Assembly (NCBI GenBank): GCA_015522845.1
Contig: WALL01000024.1
Span: 1 to 34,398, forward strand
Direction of reading: 5' to 3'
Origin: Nanobdellati archaeon
GTDB taxonomy: Archaea; B1Sed10-29; WALL01
DNA: 34,398 bases
In this document: positions 15,075 to 32,563 of the stretch, piece by piece
Numbering within the stretch: position 1 is the first letter of the stretch
Layout: each line of letters starts with the position of its first letter
The notes under the pieces: generated by a model
Database searches by the model: none
What the model was told of the DNA's origin: nothing
Seen by the model: only the letters and a program-made list of their open reading frames with translations
Made by a program: the position numbers and the translations under genes

Positions 15075-15995
15075 TCATATCTTTTCCCTTTTCCTTCCGC
15101 TTGACAGGAGCACCACGCGGGATGCCTCCTGCTCGTTCGTGATAGGATAGCCAAGCTCACTGCTTAGCCGTTCGGCAAATGCCTTTACCTCACTATGCCT
15201 CGGCATGTTGCCTATGGTCATCCTCTGCCTGCTGCTCCCAACGAACATGTATGCCTTTACCTCAACAAAGTCTGTGTTGCTCTTCTCAATTAGCCGTGCG
15301 TATCCCTTTTCGTCGAAATCGTTCCACCCCTTAACAAGGGTTATGCGTATCACTTTGCGCGTGTCAAGCGACGGGAAAAGCTCCAAGCTCCTGTTTATCC
15401 TCTCCCAGCTGTCCGGGATCATGGGCACGTTCACTTTTTTGTGCGTCTCTTTGTCGGGTGCGTCAAGCGACATGTAAAGCTGTGTAGGCAGTGTCATGCT
15501 CTCCAGCCGCTCGGGCAGCAGCCCGTTTGTAACCAGGAAAGTGGTGTAGCCTCTCGCCCCGAACGCCTCAATCAGCCCGCCGATCTTTGGATATATTGTA
15601 GGCTCCCCCGCCAGTGAGATGGCCGCCTGGTTTGGGTGCATTGCCTCCTCAAGCTTCTTCTTGTCAGCCCTCTCGTTTCCCCAATATCCCGATAGCAGCT
15701 TCCGCTGGCCCTCCTCGCACTGGTCAATTATGGTGTCTGGCTCGTCCCATTTAGGCATTGGCACGTCGTACTCATGCGGTCTCCAACAGAATATGCACTT
15801 CTGCTGGCACCACGCTACCACCGGAGTCATCTGCAGGCAGCGGTGGGATTGGATCCCATAAAACTTTTGCTTGTAGCAAACCCTGCCGCTTGTGAGGGAC
15901 TCCTTTGTCCAATGGCATAGCTTGACTCCGCTGTGGTTGCATATGTGGTAGTGCTGTTTCACCAGCTTTTCCTCAAGTGGCTTCGGAAGTGGCAT
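15075..15995 (-). CDS. taw1: tRNA 4-demethylwyosine synthase (TYW1-like radical SAM)
   Basis: TPVVAWCQQKCIFCWRPHEYD (CxxxCxxC), ISLAGEPTIYPKIGGLIEAF, YMSLDAPDKETHKKVN, FVEVKAYMFVGSSRQRM. Confidence 0.94.
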   Translation of the reverse strand: MPLPKPLEEKLVKQHYHICNHSGVKLCHWTKESLTSGRVCYKQKFYGIQSHRCLQMTPVVAWCQQKCIFCWRPHEYDVPMPKWDEPDTIIDQCEEGQRKLLSGYWGNERADKKKLEEAMHPNQAAISLAGEPTIYPKIGGLIEAFGARGYTTFLVTNGLLPERLESMTLPTQLYMSLDAPDKETHKKVNVPMIPDSWERINRSLELFPSLDTRKVIRITLVKGWNDFDEKGYARLIEKSNTDFVEVKAYMFVGSSRQRMTIGNMPRHSEVKAFAERLSSELGYPITNEQEASRVVLLSSGRKREKI

Positions 15996-16665: not shown

Positions 16666-17667
16666 TCATAGTTTAACCGTCATTTTCTGGCTCTTTTTGT
16701 CAATGAAGGCTTTTCCGCCAAGCTTTTCATTAATCTCATCATAACTAAGCCCTTTTTTCCTCAGGGATCCCACTTTCTCAATGAGCTCAGCAAGCTCCTG
16801 CCAATGCCCGTAAACGGCGTCGCCAGCTTCCTTGTAAAGCTCTGCCTTCCTCTCAAGCTCGGCAATTGCGCCCTCCTGCTGTGCGATTTTCCGCCTTACT
16901 TTTTCCGCCATTCTGCTGTCTGGTGCGGCCTCGGCATGCAGCTCATCAATTGCTTCACTTAGGCTTTTCTTCGGGAAGAACCCCTTGCCTGGGAAGCGGC
17001 GCACCACTGGCTTCCCTGCCTGTATGCCTGGCTCATAGCTTTCTAGATATGACTTTATCAGCCCAAACAGCTTCTCATTTGGCTGCATTGCATTCTTATC
17101 AACACCCGCCTCTGCACAGGCAAGCTCAAGGTAGCTCCCACCCATCTTTATCCCAGAGACAAGCGAGTGTATCACATCTTTCTCGCCAAACAGTGCATTG
17201 AACTGCCCCTTTGTCATCTCCCTTGGGTCAAGCTTTCCGGATGGCGGGAGGGCATAGCGCTCACCCCTCTTGATTTTCCTTGCACTCCATTCCTCATCGC
17301 GGAAAGCCTTCTCTATCAAGCCATCCGCACCCACGATTACCGCATTGCCATGGGAGAAAAGCTCAAACACAAGCTTTTGCCCGCTGTCCAGCCCAAGCAC
17401 AACAATGCGGTCAAAGCCTGGCTGGCTTATGGAGACCAGCTTCCCATGCAGGCGCTTGCGCGCGTATTGTGTGAAGCCGTGGGGCGGCCTTGCTGGACGC
17501 TTATGATGGCTTATGTAAATGCTTTCCGGGACATCGGCCACTATTTCCATATTCCCAAATTTCAGCTTCCAGCCGCTATCCAGGTCGGATATCCTGTCCA
17601 GATAGCTGCCAACCGCCGGCTGCAGCTCTTCCACAACCCAATGTATCTCAAGGTTTGATAGCGGCAT
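16666..17667 (-). CDS. NFACT-N / coiled-coil protein (RqcH/NEMF-like) lacking NFACT-R
   Basis: MPLSNLEIHWVVEELQPAVGSYLDRI, YARKRLHGKLVSISQPGFDRIVVL (DR motif), long coiled coil, ends KKSQKMTVKL. Confidence 0.82.
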   Translation of the reverse strand: MPLSNLEIHWVVEELQPAVGSYLDRISDLDSGWKLKFGNMEIVADVPESIYISHHKRPARPPHGFTQYARKRLHGKLVSISQPGFDRIVVLGLDSGQKLVFELFSHGNAVIVGADGLIEKAFRDEEWSARKIKRGERYALPPSGKLDPREMTKGQFNALFGEKDVIHSLVSGIKMGGSYLELACAEAGVDKNAMQPNEKLFGLIKSYLESYEPGIQAGKPVVRRFPGKGFFPKKSLSEAIDELHAEAAPDSRMAEKVRRKIAQQEGAIAELERKAELYKEAGDAVYGHWQELAELIEKVGSLRKKGLSYDEINEKLGGKAFIDKKSQKMTVKL

Positions 17668-18427
17668 ACGCCTTCCCCCACAGCCTATTAACGACCTCCC
17701 TATCATATAGGAGCATGAATGCAATTGCAACCAGCCCCCCAATGGCGTGTATCTCAAATGAGGCTGGCGTTGCTGCTTCGGTCTTCCTGCCAGTGGTGAG
17801 GGCCCGCTGTGAGCTGACCGCTTGCTCGTACTTTTTCTCCAGCAGCATCTTTTGGGACAGGGCTTTGCTGCCGTAGTTCCCACCGCTCTCACTCTCAAGC
17901 TCTGTGAGGCCGGCCTTTGCCTTTGCGGCTGCAATTATCTTGTTCTCCTCCATATAGTTAAGTGCGCTGTCGGTTGCTGGCAGTATCACATTTGGCACAA
18001 AATACAACACAAGCAGGAGCGCAATAAAGGTGTTTCTTGGCTCAGCCATTGCAGCAGCAACAAGGATGCCGGCTATCCCTGCTGATGCCCCAATAACCCA
18101 AACAGCCGGGTTTAGCAGCGCATAGCCGATCCCCCCAAGCACGCCGCTTGCAATGAATATCCCTATAACGTGGCTGCCGCGAATGTCCTGCTCCAATATG
18201 AAGCCAAATACTAAAAGCGCAATCAAGTTTCCAATTAGGTGCTTCACACCAATGTGCATGAAGAGGTAGGTGAATGAGCCAAGCAGGTTGTAGCCGCTGA
18301 CACCAAGGGGGTAAATCCTGCTTAGCGGGACCACATATGCGCTCCAACCAGATACCACAAAGTAAAACAGGACAAGCAGCGCTGATAAGGACAGCGTTGC
18401 AATTGGCAGCTTGGCCCTTTTTTTCAT
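17648..18427 (-). CDS. Rhomboid-family intramembrane serine protease with extended pre-TM6 region
   Basis: HIGVKHLIGNLIALLVFG, VIGASAGIAGILVA (GxSxG), catalytic-type His in FEIHAIGGLVAIAF; long charged insert between. Confidence 0.85.
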   Translation of the reverse strand: MKKRAKLPIATLSLSALLVLFYFVVSGWSAYVVPLSRIYPLGVSGYNLLGSFTYLFMHIGVKHLIGNLIALLVFGFILEQDIRGSHVIGIFIASGVLGGIGYALLNPAVWVIGASAGIAGILVAAAMAEPRNTFIALLLVLYFVPNVILPATDSALNYMEENKIIAAAKAKAGLTELESESGGNYGSKALSQKMLLEKKYEQAVSSQRALTTGRKTEAATPASFEIHAIGGLVAIAFMLLYDREVVNRLWGKAYAAIKP

Positions 18428-21197: not shown

Positions 21198-22751
21198 ATG
21201 CCAAAAGGAAAGGAGTACAAGCGCGTTGGGAAAGCCACGGATGCAGTGAATACGTTTTGGGGGGCTGTGGCACCACGGCTAACAAGGGCGGACAAGCTAA
21301 ACGAGAGATACAAGAGCTATTTAGATGGCGCTAAGCAATACCTTGCTAAGTTTGAGGACCACGGCAACCCGCGCGAAGTGCGCGACTTTTACCTGACACT
21401 AAAGGGCTACAAGCCCGGGGCGCTCCACAGGAATGTCAAGGGGGTTGTCGAGCTGTTGGAAGGCGCGAATAAGAAGGGCATAGAAAATATGAGCGCCAAG
21501 GAAGCGGAGAGCTATGCGGCAGCATTGCGCGGGCACATGCGCGTATTGGATGAGAGGATAAAAGGGAACCACAAAGTTGGGGAATACAAGGATGATGTTT
21601 ACAATGCGCTAAAGGAGCACCTTGATGCACTTGAGGGCGGGGACAAGAATGCAGCGGCCCAGCACCTAGCTGTAGCACTTGAGAAGGCAAGCTCGGCACT
21701 TAAGGCAACAGAGCCAGTCTACAAGGAGGTTGCGCCAACACTTGCCGATATAGACCGCTTCGAGAAGATGGTCCAATTCACTTCCAACCAGGCAAAGCTT
21801 GCTCATGTTGCGTTCACCCTATGGAACAAGCAGCTGCGGTCTGAGACAAAGGCAGCAAGAAAGCTGGTGGAAGCGCACAATAAGCTTTCTAAGCTTATGG
21901 GGGAGAGGGAGCATGCGCTGCCCCCATCGAAGGCAAAGAAATACCTACCTTCATTCCAAAAGGAGAATGAGCTAAAGGAGGAGCTTGGCCAAAAGGGCGT
22001 TTACATACCAGGGGTGCTTGAAAATCCGGGCAATGACATAGAGCTCATTGGGGTGCCTGTAAGTATGCTTAGCAATGATGCAAAGCAGGAAATCATAGAC
22101 CATTATAATAAGCAAAAGTACCTTAGCCGCGCTAACTGGGGCGTAGCTTCCCTTGCGGGGCTTATCTCTGCATCGTCATACTACCTTGCTGAGAAGGCAG
22201 CGCATAACAGCTATACCTCAAAGCTCCTTAGCGAGATAGACAGGCTAAGGTGGAACCAGGCAAACCAGCCGCAGGGCGTTGGGCAGCCTCCAACCCATGA
22301 GGCCCCAGTGGCCCCACTAAAGCCAGCACCGCCCGGCGCACCAACCTCTGAGGTGCTGCAGCAGCCTTTCCACTATGACCCGACGATTATGCTTGCTGCC
22401 CTTACCGGCGCGGTTGGCATCATTAGTGCAGCAAAGCTGAAGGGGCTAGTAAACCGCCGAAAGCTTGGGGCCAAGCTAGCAAGCTTTGAGCCCGGGGACC
22501 TAATATTTACCCCGACCGAGGAGGAGCTGAGGAAGCTAGGCGCACCAGGGCGGGCAGTTAGCGAGCAGGAGCTTAGCACAACGCTTGACTACTTGAACAG
22601 GGCGCATGCAGAGAACAATGGCGAAAGGAACGCATTTGTATTCTTCAAGCCAGGCAAGGGCAAAAACAAGATAGATGATGGGGTGGTGTTCTTTTACCTG
22701 CCAAAGGGGAGCAAAATCCCAGTAAAGCATAGCGGCGCTAGCCAATCATAA
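21198..22751 (+). CDS. Hypothetical 517-aa helical protein with two hydrophobic segments and a Pro-rich loop
   Basis: Long single ORF; hydrophobic WGVASLAGLISASSYYLAE and IMLAALTGAVGIISAAKL separated by PVAPLKPAPPGAPTSE. Confidence 0.65.
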   Translation: MPKGKEYKRVGKATDAVNTFWGAVAPRLTRADKLNERYKSYLDGAKQYLAKFEDHGNPREVRDFYLTLKGYKPGALHRNVKGVVELLEGANKKGIENMSAKEAESYAAALRGHMRVLDERIKGNHKVGEYKDDVYNALKEHLDALEGGDKNAAAQHLAVALEKASSALKATEPVYKEVAPTLADIDRFEKMVQFTSNQAKLAHVAFTLWNKQLRSETKAARKLVEAHNKLSKLMGEREHALPPSKAKKYLPSFQKENELKEELGQKGVYIPGVLENPGNDIELIGVPVSMLSNDAKQEIIDHYNKQKYLSRANWGVASLAGLISASSYYLAEKAAHNSYTSKLLSEIDRLRWNQANQPQGVGQPPTHEAPVAPLKPAPPGAPTSEVLQQPFHYDPTIMLAALTGAVGIISAAKLKGLVNRRKLGAKLASFEPGDLIFTPTEEELRKLGAPGRAVSEQELSTTLDYLNRAHAENNGERNAFVFFKPGKGKNKIDDGVVFFYLPKGSKIPVKHSGASQS

Positions 22752-24118
22752 TGAAACAGCTAAAGCGCATAGTTGACTTCATAGACGATCATGACGAGTT
22801 CATGGTTGTCTGCCACTATGATGCCGATGGGCTGTCGGCAGGTGCAATTGTATCCACACTGCTTGATAGGCTCGGCAAAAAGAACACAGTAGTCCCAACT
22901 AAGCAAATGGACTCTGAGCGCATAAAGCTAATTAAGGAAGGCAAAAACCACATCTTCACTGACTTCGGCTCTGGGCAGATCCCGGTTTTGGAGGAGAACC
23001 TTACAAACTTTGCAATCATTGACCATCATGCCACACTTGGCGAGACAGAAAAGCCGCATTTCAATGCACATTTAGAGGGCCTTGATGGCGCAAGGGAGAT
23101 AAGCGGCTCTGGGATGTCTTACCTTGTTGCTAAGGAATTTGGCTTTAAGGACCTGTCTGCAGTCGCAATTGTTGGTGCGGTTGGCGATATGCAGGACTCG
23201 ACTGGCGCTTTGGTTGGCTACAACCGGAAAATCCTTGCGGATGCTGAAAAGGCAGGGGTCATGGAAGCAAAGAAGGACATACGCCTGTTCGGCAGGCACT
23301 CCCGGCCGCTTGTGCAGTTCATCTCCTTTGCATCCGACCCCATATTCCCTGGCCTGACTGGCGACGAGGATGCAGTAAGGGGGTTCCTCCACGAGCTTGA
23401 TATCCCCCTAAAAGAGGGGGGTAATTGGGCATATTACGTAGACCTTGACGATTCCCAAAAGCGGAAGCTGATATCTGCGCTTTACGTCTATGGGAAGCAG
23501 CATGGCATCCCTGAGCGCTATCTGCACTCGCTTGTGGGGGAGGTATATGAGCTTACCCACGAGCAGGACAAGACGTTTGTGAAGGATGCAAAGGACTTTG
23601 CGACCATGCTGAATGCCTGTGGGCGCCACGAGCAAGGGATTATAGGGGTGCAGGTAGCAAAGGGCGACAGGGGCAGCTATTACAAGAAAGCACAGGCGCT
23701 CCTCCTCATGCACCGCAGGCAGCTTCGCGAGGGGATTGAATGGGCCAAGGCGCATGGCGCAGAGGACCAAGGCACGTTTTACCTTCTTGATGCCGGGGCA
23801 GCCATAAAGGACACACTGATTGGCGTAATTGCAGGCATGCTTTATGGGGCCCAAGTGATTGGGCAGGACAAGCCAGTAATTGGCATTAGCTTTGACGAGG
23901 AGGAGGGCAGGATGAAGGCATCCGGCAGGGCTACCTGGCCACTTGTCCACAGGGGCATACACCTTGGGAAAGCCATGAAGGCGGCAGCATCCTCCGTTGG
24001 CGGGGAGGGCGGGGGCCATAACATTGCTGCAGGCGCACACTTTCCCCCCGAGAAAAAGGGCGAATTCCTCTCTGCGCTGGGAAGGGAGTTTAGTGCCCAG
24101 CTGGCTAACCCGCAATAG
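22751..24118 (+). CDS. DHH-family RecJ-like phosphoesterase/exonuclease
   Basis: VVCHYDADGLSAGAIV, IIDHHATLGE, SGSGMSYLVAKEFG, GGEGGGHNIAAGA; start overlaps upstream stop (TAATG). Confidence 0.92.
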   Translation: MKQLKRIVDFIDDHDEFMVVCHYDADGLSAGAIVSTLLDRLGKKNTVVPTKQMDSERIKLIKEGKNHIFTDFGSGQIPVLEENLTNFAIIDHHATLGETEKPHFNAHLEGLDGAREISGSGMSYLVAKEFGFKDLSAVAIVGAVGDMQDSTGALVGYNRKILADAEKAGVMEAKKDIRLFGRHSRPLVQFISFASDPIFPGLTGDEDAVRGFLHELDIPLKEGGNWAYYVDLDDSQKRKLISALYVYGKQHGIPERYLHSLVGEVYELTHEQDKTFVKDAKDFATMLNACGRHEQGIIGVQVAKGDRGSYYKKAQALLLMHRRQLREGIEWAKAHGAEDQGTFYLLDAGAAIKDTLIGVIAGMLYGAQVIGQDKPVIGISFDEEEGRMKASGRATWPLVHRGIHLGKAMKAAASSVGGEGGGHNIAAGAHFPPEKKGEFLSALGREFSAQLANPQ

Positions 24119-27916: not shown

Positions 27917-28705
27917 CTAGTATCCAATCCCTAGCGCGTCCAGGGCGCTTTTCACCATGGCCCTATGCCTGCCTTTCATCCCCTTCTCATCAAGCACTGC
28001 AAAGCCAACCCCATCTGCAGTCTTCTCTGCCATCTGCGCAACTAGCCCCTTGTCAAGGCTGTCAAGCGCATACTTTGCGCATATGTGGCTAAACGCAACT
28101 TCTTCCATCTTGGAGAATTTTGGAGCATAGTGCCCGCCGCCAAAGCCAATTGCGTGCTCCCACTTTTTCTTGCTCTCAAGCCCGCGGATTATTGCCTCAG
28201 CAACGAACTCTGCTGCTTCACGGTCTTTCCATTGCCTTTCTGTCGAGCCAATCTCCACGAAGAACAAGGGGGTCTTGAACTTGGTTGGGCCGTGGTGGGT
28301 TGCTTCAAGGCATACATCATAGTCAAGCGCGCATCCCAAAAGCTCGCGGTATATGCTGTGCTTTGCGTTTGCAAGCGTGTTTTGGAGGGTGTGGCCCTCG
28401 CCGCCATACTCCGCCTTGCCAAAGTTTCCAGTGGAGTGCACAGTAAGTGTTGGCTTGCCTGACTTAGAGCTGTGCCTTGATGCAAGCACTATGAAGTCCA
28501 GCCCAAGCTGGCTGGCAAGCTCGTCTATGTGCTCTGCGTATATTATGTCCTCGCTTATTGTAGTTGCACGGTAGTGCCCCATACTAAGCACTGGCCTTCC
28601 GCGGAAGCTGCCAAGGCCACTGGCGAAGCCCATACCCTCTAGGGCACTTATTATCCCCATCCCTGCAGGGTCCTGCTCAGAAGCCACTATCCCTATCACT
28701 GCCAC
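27917..28705 (-). CDS. dtdA: D-aminoacyl-tRNA deacylase (archaeal DtdA/GEK1 type)
   Basis: VAVIGIVASEQDPAGMGI, LASRHSSKSGKPTLTVHSTGNFG, LEATHHGPT, FVEIGSTERQW, GFGGGHYAPKF. Probable GTG start at 28705; the ORF track start is upstream. Confidence 0.92.
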   Translation of the reverse strand: MAVIGIVASEQDPAGMGIISALEGMGFASGLGSFRGRPVLSMGHYRATTISEDIIYAEHIDELASQLGLDFIVLASRHSSKSGKPTLTVHSTGNFGKAEYGGEGHTLQNTLANAKHSIYRELLGCALDYDVCLEATHHGPTKFKTPLFFVEIGSTERQWKDREAAEFVAEAIIRGLESKKKWEHAIGFGGGHYAPKFSKMEEVAFSHICAKYALDSLDKGLVAQMAEKTADGVGFAVLDEKGMKGRHRAMVKSALDALGIGY

Positions 28706-28769
28706 TCTTGCTTGTTTCCTTAAATAAAAATGCGCTACTTTTAAATATCTATGCTGGGAAGGTAATAGC

Positions 28770-29435
28770 ATGCCAAGGGAAAAGATTTTTGAGCTAACCA
28801 ATGAGGAGATAAGCCACCATTTTAGGCATGAGTTCCACAAGCCAGAAAACTTGCTTATGCTTGCCGAGTCCCGCAGGGTATACAAGACAGGGGGGGTTGA
28901 GGTACCAGTGCTTGTGCTGTCAGAGCTGCACCCTCGGCTATTAAAGACTTACCTAAATAGGGTAGTCACCCTTGACTTTGAGGGAAAATTTAAGGATGTC
29001 CTTGACCATATTGTTTCCCATATCGTTGTCTCTGAAGTGAAGGAGATGAAGCCAGATAAGTCGGAGGCACTCTTCTCTGACTTTACGCCACTCGTTAGGA
29101 GGAGGCTTACAAACATAACAAATGTGATATTCCTCAAGAAGACAGTCCCAATAAGTGAGATACTAATGGTTGTTGACTATTTCAAAGGCAGCGCCCCAGC
29201 GGAGATAGACACAAAAAAAGCAGAGAAGAAGATAGCGAAATTCCTAATGAGCCACTTTGCAAAGAAAAACCCCCGCTCCGTGACTGGCTTGCTGATGAAA
29301 GGGCCAAAGCATACGTACATACTTGTTGCCTTCCATATGGACTATGGGGAGGAAGCGTTTGGGTTTAAGAAGGCGCGCTCAACTTATAAGGAAATGCTTA
29401 ACCTTGCCCATGAGGACGAGGACCATATGGTCTAG
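28770..29435 (+). CDS. Conserved-looking hypothetical protein (221 aa)
   Basis: Single ORF MPREKIFELTNEEISHHFRHEFHKPENLLMLAESRR...; no family recognised. Confidence 0.65.
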   Translation: MPREKIFELTNEEISHHFRHEFHKPENLLMLAESRRVYKTGGVEVPVLVLSELHPRLLKTYLNRVVTLDFEGKFKDVLDHIVSHIVVSEVKEMKPDKSEALFSDFTPLVRRRLTNITNVIFLKKTVPISEILMVVDYFKGSAPAEIDTKKAEKKIAKFLMSHFAKKNPRSVTGLLMKGPKHTYILVAFHMDYGEEAFGFKKARSTYKEMLNLAHEDEDHMV

Positions 29436-29649: not shown

Positions 29650-30165
29650 ATGCTAAGATTTTTAGTTGCTATCCTTTGGTATATCCTGCCTGCTTACATT
29701 GCTAATGCTTCTGCAGTGCTGGCAAAAGGCAGGACACCATTAGACCAGAACATTAGGTTTGTTGATGGCCGAAGGCTGCTAGGGAAAGGCAAGACAGTCA
29801 AGGGCTTCGTGCTTGCGGTCCTTGCCGGGACGCTGGCAGGCGCAGCCTTGGGGTATGCAGAAGGTGCACTTGTGGCCAGGACGCTGCTTGCATTTGTACT
29901 GTCTTTTGGGGCAATGGCCGGTGATTCAGCAGGCTCATTCATAAAGAGGAGGTTTGACATAAGGCCAGGGGAGGCTGCCCCGCTATTGGACCAATGGGAT
30001 TTCGTGCTCTCTGCTATGCTCTTTCACTGGGCTTTCCTGCCGTGGATAGCCATACCGCTCCCAACAGTATTGGAAGCGCTTGCCATCCTTGTGCTTACTG
30101 CATTGCTGCATGTTTGCACCAATATAGCCGCTTACCATATGGGTCTAAAAAAGGTGCCGTGGTAG
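29650..30165 (+). CDS. carS: CDP-archaeol synthase (DUF46)
   Basis: YILPAYIANASAVLAKGRTPLDQNIRFVDGRRLLGKGKTVKGF, GDSAGSFIKRR, LLDQWDFVL. Confidence 0.95.
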   Translation: MLRFLVAILWYILPAYIANASAVLAKGRTPLDQNIRFVDGRRLLGKGKTVKGFVLAVLAGTLAGAALGYAEGALVARTLLAFVLSFGAMAGDSAGSFIKRRFDIRPGEAAPLLDQWDFVLSAMLFHWAFLPWIAIPLPTVLEALAILVLTALLHVCTNIAAYHMGLKKVPW

Positions 30166-30235
30166 CCCCGCCCGGATTCGAACCGGGGCCGCTGGCTCCA
30201 AAGGCCAGCATCCTTGGCCGCTAGACTACGGGGCT
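30163..30235 (-). tRNA. tRNA-Gln, anticodon TTG
   Basis: Minus strand AGCCCCGTAGTCTAGCGGCCAAGGATGCTGGCCTTTGGAGCCAGCGGCCCCGGTTCGAATCCGGGCGGGGCTA; anticodon loop CTTTGGA; CCA encoded immediately downstream (30160-30162). Confidence 0.96.
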
Positions 30236-30277: not shown

Positions 30278-30952
30278 TTAGAGGAATGGCCTAACTGAGA
30301 ACCCCCTCTCGCTAATGACTACTGGGTACCAAGCAACAGGGAAGTTTGTTGCAAGCATCTTTGACACAAGGAGCTGCTTCTTGAATTCCCCATTTGGCTC
30401 CTCTGCCTGCTGTAGCTCAATAATGCCATCACAAAGCCCGCTCTCGGCCTTTCCGCCATCCGATACAATAAGTGAGGTTATATTGTTATCCTTAAAGAAC
30501 TCGATTGTCTCATAAAGGCTGCGCCGGTAATCCGCCTTATCGCTTAGCTTTTCTGATAAGGGGGTGGCAGAGTCTATTACAACCCTCCGGGCGCCCATTG
30601 GGACAATTATATTCCTTAGCTTGCCAAGGACCTCACCTTGGAGCTTTGTTGGCCCGAACTTGTCATAATCCTTAGGCTTGAATGAGTAAATGACAAGCTT
30701 TCCCTTTTCCTGCATCTTGGCAAGGTCCCAGCCCAGCATCTCCTCATACCATAGCAGCGTTGTCCCAAACCCGCCAGCTTGTATGAGTATGCCTGGCTCC
30801 CCGTAGTCTTTTACCCCGCCATAGAGGAACTGCAATCCAAGCAAGCTCTTTCCAGTGCCAGCTCCCCCCTTTATAAGCACGGAGCTATTTTCTGGGAATC
30901 CCCCCTCTATAAGCCTGTCCAGCCCAGGGATGGCCGTGTGTATCCTTTGCAT
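30278..30952 (-). CDS. Single-domain KaiC/RecA-like ATPase
   Basis: IPGLDRLIEGGFPENSSVLIKGGAGTGKSLLGLQFLYGG, VVIDSATPLSEKL. Confidence 0.9.
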   Translation of the reverse strand: MQRIHTAIPGLDRLIEGGFPENSSVLIKGGAGTGKSLLGLQFLYGGVKDYGEPGILIQAGGFGTTLLWYEEMLGWDLAKMQEKGKLVIYSFKPKDYDKFGPTKLQGEVLGKLRNIIVPMGARRVVIDSATPLSEKLSDKADYRRSLYETIEFFKDNNITSLIVSDGGKAESGLCDGIIELQQAEEPNGEFKKQLLVSKMLATNFPVAWYPVVISERGFSVRPFL

Positions 30953-31024: not shown

Positions 31025-32563
31025 ATGCATTGGATAGCCAGCGACATTGCTGCAAGGGCAGAGAAAGGCTTTAATGCTGCATGGGTACAGCTGGTTGACA
31101 TGGCCCCAGAGGGCGGCTACAAGCCGCTAAAGGAAGGCAAGCCCCACGCAGGGAGTGAGCTTGTGCAAAGGCTGAGGCGGGTGCTGCTGGCTGCTGGCTA
31201 TAGCGAGGTGGCCCTGCCTGAGATAATGAGCTATAGTGAGATGGGGGATGCTGCTGGCCCTGCGAAGGCACTTGCAATTGCTGACACCTTTTCACTTGCC
31301 GCATCCGTGCGGCCAAAGCCAGCCATCAGCAAGGCGCAGCTGGACGCAATTAAGGGCATAGCGCCAACCTTTAATGAGGAGAGGAGGGCGGCACTGGAAA
31401 ATGCATTTAGGGGCTATTCAGAAGGCCAGCTTAATTCCCAGCAGCTGCTGTCTGAAATGGTGGGCAAGGCAGGGCTTAGGATGGAGCAGGCGCTTGAGGT
31501 AGCTAACTTGCTAGTTGGCATACCACACCAACAGCAGCAGCAAGCACTGCTTAGGAGAGGCCTTGTATACTCTTGGTTTCCAACCCTGGCGGCGCTATCA
31601 AAAAAGCAGCCACTCCCCCTCCAGCTCTTTTCAATAGGGACAGGGTTTAGGCAGGGCAGGATGAGGGAGGGTACCTTTGTGTCTGGCGCAATAATGGCGG
31701 AGAATGTCTCCCATAAGGACTTAAAGGGGCTTTTGCCTGCAGTGCTGGGCCCGCTAAGTGCAAAGGTGGGGTTTGAGAAAGCTGTGGCAACATCAACTGT
31801 ATTTGTGCCAGGCACCGAGGAGGCTATCTTCGCAGAGGGGCTTCACCTAGGGAGGCTGGGCCTTGCCTCACCAATAGCGCTATCTGCCTATGGGCTGGAG
31901 GCCCCAGTTGCAATATTTGAGCTTAGTGTCGAGCGGCTTGCCATTGCCCTTGGGCTAGGGCATGATGAGAAGGAGATAAAGTACCCCCAGTTTTTTGGCA
32001 AGTGGAAAATGGAAGATAAGGAAATAGCGAGGCTAGTCCACATTGGCCAGAAGCCGCCGGGGTGGGGAAGGGAAATAAAGAACAGGATTATCAAGACATG
32101 CTCACTTTATTATGGCCAGCCTGCCCCATGCGAGTTTAGGATTTTTGAAAAGGAGGTTGGGGACAGCAAGCTTGAAGTGTGGCTTTCATCTGACAAGGGA
32201 ACGCTTTGTGGGAAGGACTTCAGCAATGAGGTGGTGGTGTATGATGGGAACGTGGTCTCAACTCCCCAAATAGCCGCCACGCCGGTGGCAAAAGAGGCGC
32301 TTGCAAAGGGTACAAAGACAGGGATTACACTCATTGGGGCATTTGCAAGCTATGCTGCTGCGGCAATAGAGGCCAACCCCACCAAGGCCCAGGAAATAGC
32401 AGTTGGTAATATAACTAGCCCATCTGAGGCCAACATAGTTGTGCCCCAGCTGGTAATGGACTATATTAAGCAAAATGGGAAGGAATTGGGCATAGCCGGT
32501 AGCCTTGGCTTAAGGGTCGTTGCCCGGGTGAAGCGACTATGGCAGCATGAGCAGCCCCGCTAA
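31025..32563 (+). CDS. O-phosphoseryl-tRNA synthetase (SepRS) homologue, divergent active-site motifs
   Basis: Colinear with SepRS blocks: FSIGTGFR, GLASPIALSAYGLEAPVAIFELSVERLAIAL...YPQFFGKWKMEDKEIARLV, PCEFRIFEKEV...TLCGKDFSNEVVVYDGNV, SPSEANIVV. Confidence 0.78.
   Translation: MHWIASDIAARAEKGFNAAWVQLVDMAPEGGYKPLKEGKPHAGSELVQRLRRVLLAAGYSEVALPEIMSYSEMGDAAGPAKALAIADTFSLAASVRPKPAISKAQLDAIKGIAPTFNEERRAALENAFRGYSEGQLNSQQLLSEMVGKAGLRMEQALEVANLLVGIPHQQQQQALLRRGLVYSWFPTLAALSKKQPLPLQLFSIGTGFRQGRMREGTFVSGAIMAENVSHKDLKGLLPAVLGPLSAKVGFEKAVATSTVFVPGTEEAIFAEGLHLGRLGLASPIALSAYGLEAPVAIFELSVERLAIALGLGHDEKEIKYPQFFGKWKMEDKEIARLVHIGQKPPGWGREIKNRIIKTCSLYYGQPAPCEFRIFEKEVGDSKLEVWLSSDKGTLCGKDFSNEVVVYDGNVVSTPQIAATPVAKEALAKGTKTGITLIGAFASYAAAAIEANPTKAQEIAVGNITSPSEANIVVPQLVMDYIKQNGKELGIAGSLGLRVVARVKRLWQHEQPR

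Follow-up and report, generated by a model that had tools for sequence, protein, structure and literature searches.

A SepRS homologue with an eroded catalytic site and a constrained C-terminal domain in Diapherotrites-type archaea

PheRS beta and HisZ are non-catalytic derivatives of class II synthetases with known partners. For SepRS, Mukai et al. 2022 (PMC8762117) describe a degenerate full-length homologue in an Alv-FOS5 Micrarchaeon (section 3.3.2), as well as homologues in pISA35 Micrarchaeota that consist of the C-terminal domain alone and are encoded next to asnS, amounting to one full-length and two short examples. The same study points to the importance of the Asn-X-Gly motif, proposes that such proteins support other aminoacylation systems, and leaves their function open. 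The question of what non-canonical SepRS homologues do is thus posed by that study, and a further group of them is described below.

The gene in question lies in a window (the whole 34,398-nucleotide stretch analysed) from a Diapherotrites-type DPANN archaeon, whose genome (G000) comprises 749,914 bases in 46 contigs and is 89.67% complete. Our literature search found no mention of Diapherotrites together with SepRS. We consider its product probably (at roughly 60%) a repurposed SepRS: a pseudo-synthetase that now serves as an accessory protein binding RNA.

The window protein and its catalytic motifs

The reading frame (Table 1) begins with ATG and contains no internal stops. The earlier note had taken its product for a full-length SepRS homologue, and profile and structure comparisons agree. 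Residues 10–502 are colinear with positions 10–532 of the 533-position TIGR00470 profile (E = 2.9e-58), an end-to-end match whose 197.6 bits nevertheless fall below the curated cut-off of 380.65, at about half its value. The closest solved structures are SepRS, and the match to A. fulgidus SepRS 2du3 (E = 1.2e-44, PDB alignment 11–533) is far beyond chance. Superposition of an AlphaFold model, also raised in that note, gave a partial answer: 2du3 led the structure search (E = 3e-35), followed by PheRS and PylRS, but the TM was only 0.50 and the model moderate (pLDDT 77, pTM 0.55, six sequences in the input), with an uncertain domain arrangement.

Mapped on AfSepRS, the substitutions are H186G, T188V, E218G, Q219R, T305R, N325I and G327E, with S233 and the arginines of motifs 2 and 3 unchanged. 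The Sep-pocket residues H186, T188, N325 and G327, here G, V, I and E, are invariant in 19 canonical rows, and the window protein retains 18 of the 42 catalytic positions that hardly vary across 19 canonical proteins. We take the phosphate contacts in the 2007 SepRS structures to be T188, S231, S233 and T305. Motif 2 reads FRQGRM, some six loop residues being absent, and the Asn-X-Gly block reads PVAIFELSVERL, with IFE where canonical SepRS has NLG. The alterations first noticed in motif 2 and in the block before motif 3, including loss of the motif-2 Glu, are therefore real (FRQGRM, E218G, N325I, G327E). The accompanying description of degenerate phosphoserine and ATP motifs holds for the eroded Sep pocket but not for the ATP-contacting R209 and R304, both of which the window protein retains.

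Table 1. Features of the SepRS-like gene and its retained neighbours, in window coordinates.
Feature	Position	Strand	Basis
tRNA-Gln (TTG), neighbour retained in G001, G002 and G007	30160..30235	-	
KaiC-family ATPase, divergent neighbour; synteny retained in G001, G002 and G007	30278..30952	-	
SepRS-like pseudo-synthetase gene, 512 aa	31025..32563	+	ORF, SepRS profile and PDB matches
LLRRGLVYSWF, equivalent to canonical LRSHMTxxWF; H186 to G, T188 to V (Sep-phosphate side)	31547..31579	+	Alignment to SepRS
Motif 2 and loop, FSIGTGFRQGRMREGTFVSGAIM; E218 to G, loop shortened, motif-2 Arg retained (R209)	31628..31696	+	
LHLGRLGLASP, equivalent to EIATFGIYSP; T305 (canonical T or D) to R	31841..31873	+	
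Asn-X-Gly strand and motif 3, PVAIFELSVERLAI; N325I, G327E, motif-3 Arg retained (R304)	31904..31945	+	
C-terminal anticodon-binding-type domain, where the degenerate clade is best conserved; E418/E420 to S and K	31979..32524	+	
C-terminal tail RVKRLWQHEQPR, absent from aligned canonical SepRS; related tail in five relatives	32525..32560	+	

Graded decay and selection within the class

Degenerate SepRS-like proteins occur in 10 of the 19 class genomes examined, and G013 is the sole class member with canonical SepRS motifs. The gene was not detected in the other eight, some of them incomplete, and so is not essential across the class. Both ATP arginines are present in the window genus (G000 and G001). 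The motif-3 Arg has become Lys in G003, both arginines are gone from G002, G007 and G009, motif 2 and the motif-3 Arg are absent from G015, G017 and G018, and G012 consists of the C-terminal domain alone (192 aa). Since the G009 gene begins at a contig edge, its absent N-terminus is uninformative. At the G327 position an acidic or amide residue recurs: E in G000, G001 and G007, D in G009, and N in G015 and G017. A single clade thus spans a graded series, with full-length proteins that retain both ATP arginines at one end and an isolated C-terminal domain at the other.

In a tree of the C-terminal domain, a branch supported at 97/98 sets all ten degenerate members apart, which leads us to read them as one lineage. 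G003 has the shortest branch among them, their internal order is poorly resolved, and G013 is the first to branch on the canonical side. Outside the class, at least one representative from each of 35 archaeal families was inspected (12, then 23 more); those long enough were canonical, with small exceptions, and among these representatives motif erosion was confined to the class (10 genomes). Short SepRS ORFs in G278, G312, G353 and G395 run to contig ends and were discarded. One outside genome with SepCysS, G247 (L153), has the unusual SepRS motifs LISHAT and NSGPGLGR.

The pattern of conservation is inverted. Canonical proteins best keep the catalytic core (mean identity 54%, against 37% in the C-terminal domain), whereas five degenerate members best keep the C-terminal domain (45%, against 35% in the core). 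At codon positions 1, 2 and 3, G000 and G001 differ by 0.42, 0.33 and 0.66 over the N-terminal and catalytic part and by 0.32, 0.27 and 0.63 over the C-terminal domain, so that position 3 exceeds position 1 and position 1 exceeds position 2 in both halves. Both parts are under purifying selection, the C-terminal domain more strongly. This pattern, together with reading frames unbroken in all ten genomes (one beginning at a contig edge), argues against a pseudogene, a reading we rejected. The protein nonetheless changes quickly, at 48% identity between same-genus genomes as against 61–76% for neighbouring genes and CysRS.

Canonical proteins show little or no variation at E418 and E420, which contact the anticodon and are the sites mutated in the tRNA-opal mutant 2du5; in degenerate members these residues are mostly lost. 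Specific recognition of tRNA-Cys is therefore unsupported; going by the aligned residues, the C-terminal domain has probably been kept as a fold, but with its contact to the GCA anticodon changed. A comparison of the domain's net charge gave no clear difference. The tail follows the pattern R(V/I)(K/R)RLWxHEQP(R) at the protein ends of G000–G003 and G007, with a looser version, RIRKLWVYRKGQ, in G009. A search of the 19 class genomes found KRLWxHEQP solely in SepRS-like genes, and we rejected the notion of a tail common to other proteins. The C-terminal domain and tail are accordingly where function should be sought.

Cysteine pathway and gene neighbourhood

SepCysS was sought in the window genome (89.67% complete) and its nine gene-bearing relatives and was found in none of the ten, where solely weak desulfurase-type matches were returned; within the class only G013 exceeded the cut-off. 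CysRS is full-length in the window genome (C21:23438-24832, 503 bits) and above the cut-off in nine of the ten (G000, G001, G002, G003, G007, G009, G012, G015 and G017), G018 having a 208-aa fragment only. A second SepRS was also looked for in the window genome and rejected, as the matches were short and PheRS-like. The earlier note had held that a genome with SepCysS, no CysRS and only this SepRS would imply ordinary activity; the opposite arrangement was found. The tRNA-Cys of G000 has the ordinary identity set of GCA, G37 and U73. In G012, which has the C-terminal-only homologue, the CysRS match (G012:C22:11684-12862) is itself shortened, ending at profile position 394 of 466 in an open frame of 416 aa, possibly at an assembly edge.

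Across 397 archaeal genomes, the SepRS C-terminal domain was detected in 141 and SepCysS (E <= 1e-60) in 131. The two are paired in 1 of 11 class genomes with SepRS as against 127 of 130 outside it (Fisher p = 5e-12, indicative only given that the genomes are related). The three unpaired outsiders are 62–81% complete, and the two inspected (G287 and G295) have canonical motifs. G013, with canonical SepRS and SepCysS, serves as an internal control tying catalytic decay to SepCysS loss, and finding a SepRS gene is not enough to infer the indirect cysteine pathway. The G013 locus (L085) clusters canonical SepRS, IscU-like, NifS, SufS, tRNA-Cys and SepCysS, with an HNH-repeat, homing-endonuclease-like ORF near SepCysS (L085:14167-15186). 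CysRS is on the same contig (G013:C24:19982-21352), giving this Diapherotrites-class genome the two cysteine routes together.

In G000, G001, G002 and G007 the gene is flanked by the KaiC-family ATPase and tRNA-Gln(TTG) on one side and by S3Ae on the other, with DUF92 intervening where called; the recurrence of tRNA-Gln(TTG) beside the two genes may be plain synteny. Immediate neighbours in the window are KaiC, tRNA-Gln, CarS, DUF92 and S3Ae. Neither asnS nor TRAX/recJ was found next to the window gene, asnS being on contig C9. The G003 gene adjoins cysK, cysS, nifS, iscU and sufS, a setting resembling that of canonical G013, where tRNA-Cys and SepCysS are also near. Between cysS and cysK of G003 lies a LAGLIDADG homing-endonuclease-like ORF (L081:9001-9774). 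In G012, G015, G017 and G018 the gene sits between asnS and the FttA gene, the latter identified in G012 and assigned by clustering in the other three. However, asnS is present in all 19 class genomes, with or without a SepRS-like gene, and we rejected an asnS link as a general rule. As no neighbour is common to all members, context names no partner. Elsewhere in the window are other tRNA- or RNA-related genes: a wyosine-type radical SAM enzyme (15075-15995), an NFACT-type protein (16666-17934), a DHH/DHHA1 protein (22751-24118) and a D-aminoacyl-tRNA deacylase (27917-28885).

Competing readings and comparison with known systems

Three readings had been offered at the outset, namely a changed substrate, a non-synthetase function and a fast-evolving SepRS. 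A non-synthetase function is the best supported, since most of the family lack motif 2, motif 3 or both, and the fast evolution is borne out by the identities above, but ordinary SepRS activity is contradicted. That the protein still makes Sep-tRNA-Cys, with SepCysS present in some unrecognised form, seems to us most improbable. Colinearity over the full length and a canonical tRNA-Cys would suit such an enzyme, but Sep-pocket residues invariant in the aligned canonical proteins are lost, SepCysS is absent and CysRS is present. It is quite unlikely that the protein is a working synthetase, or a ligase using ATP, that has acquired a new substrate. Its changed pocket (N325I, G327E, T188V, T305R) would take another amino acid or metabolite and its changed anticodon glutamates another tRNA, as the recurring acidic or amide residue at G327 and similar replacements noted for Thermoplasmata SepRS-like proteins by Mukai et al. 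2022 (PMC8762117) might suggest. However, the motif-2 Glu and loop are lost, the arginines are changed or lost in most same-clade relatives, and AsnRS, CysRS and PheRS genes are all present in G000, leaving no gap among the synthetases checked (not all twenty). The survival of both ATP arginines in the window genus makes it conceivable that the protein there acts on some other substrate, though we hold it very unlikely to be an active enzyme with new specificities for both amino acid and tRNA.

A slowly decaying relic, of weak or no function and heading for loss, would account for the fast evolution, the stepwise shortening to a C-terminal domain and the failure to detect the gene in eight genomes. 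We nevertheless think it unlikely, given the unbroken frames, the excess of third-position changes, the invariant residues and the new conserved tail. As a special case of accessory function, the protein might aid one charging system in trans, such as tRNA-Cys with CysRS, or AsnRS. The support of other aminoacylation systems proposed in Mukai et al. 2022 (PMC8762117), the adjacent asnS in the four genomes of the short group and the nearby cysS in G003 all lean this way. Such dedication is possible but doubtful, as asnS occurs regardless of the gene and lies on another contig in G000, the G000 CysRS appears complete, and neighbours vary between lineages.

Repurposing into an RNA-binding accessory protein could have proceeded as follows. 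An ancestor of the Diapherotrites lineage would have had SepRS, SepCysS and CysRS, as G013 has at present. With SepCysS lost and cysteine coding taken over by CysRS, the freed SepRS may have been retained for another job, its Sep pocket decaying first and its ATP site next while the C-terminal domain stayed constrained, and the short tail would have arisen in one branch. We infer the order of these losses from the graded series. The present protein might then act as an RNA-binding accessory or chaperone, its C-terminal domain holding tRNA, possibly beyond tRNA-Cys because the anticodon glutamates have changed, its old catalytic fold serving as an oligomerisation scaffold and its tail docking onto a partner.

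Like canonical SepRS (2du3, TIGR00470), the window protein has the fold order, full length and both catalytic and C-terminal domains; unlike it, it is without the Sep pocket, motif-2 Glu and E418/E420, has no accompanying SepCysS and carries an extra tail. It would parallel PheRS beta and HisZ in keeping a class II fold after charging was lost, but those are different families. Thermoplasmata SepRS-like proteins share a replaced Asn-X-Gly and an altered Sep pocket (PMC8762117, section 3.3.1). Their genes, however, lie in TRAX and/or recJ operons, unlike the window gene, and the passages on them do not describe the motif 2 and 3 erosion of the present clade. The degenerate homologues of Mukai et al. 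2022 come closer, with an altered Asn-X-Gly (IFE for NLG here), eroded motifs, a kept C-terminal domain and a host not dependent on the Sep route, as CysRS, AsnRS and PheRS indicate for G000. Judged by description, the Micrarchaeota proteins likewise comprise full-length degenerate or C-terminal-only forms in DPANN archaea, and the asnS-adjacent short form of pISA35 matches G012, G015, G017 and G018; the window protein, from Diapherotrites, differs in its full length, its KRLWxHEQPR tail and its neighbourhood. Degenerate SepRS was thus already known in Micrarchaeota (PMC8762117), to which the Diapherotrites clade is a new and better-populated addition.
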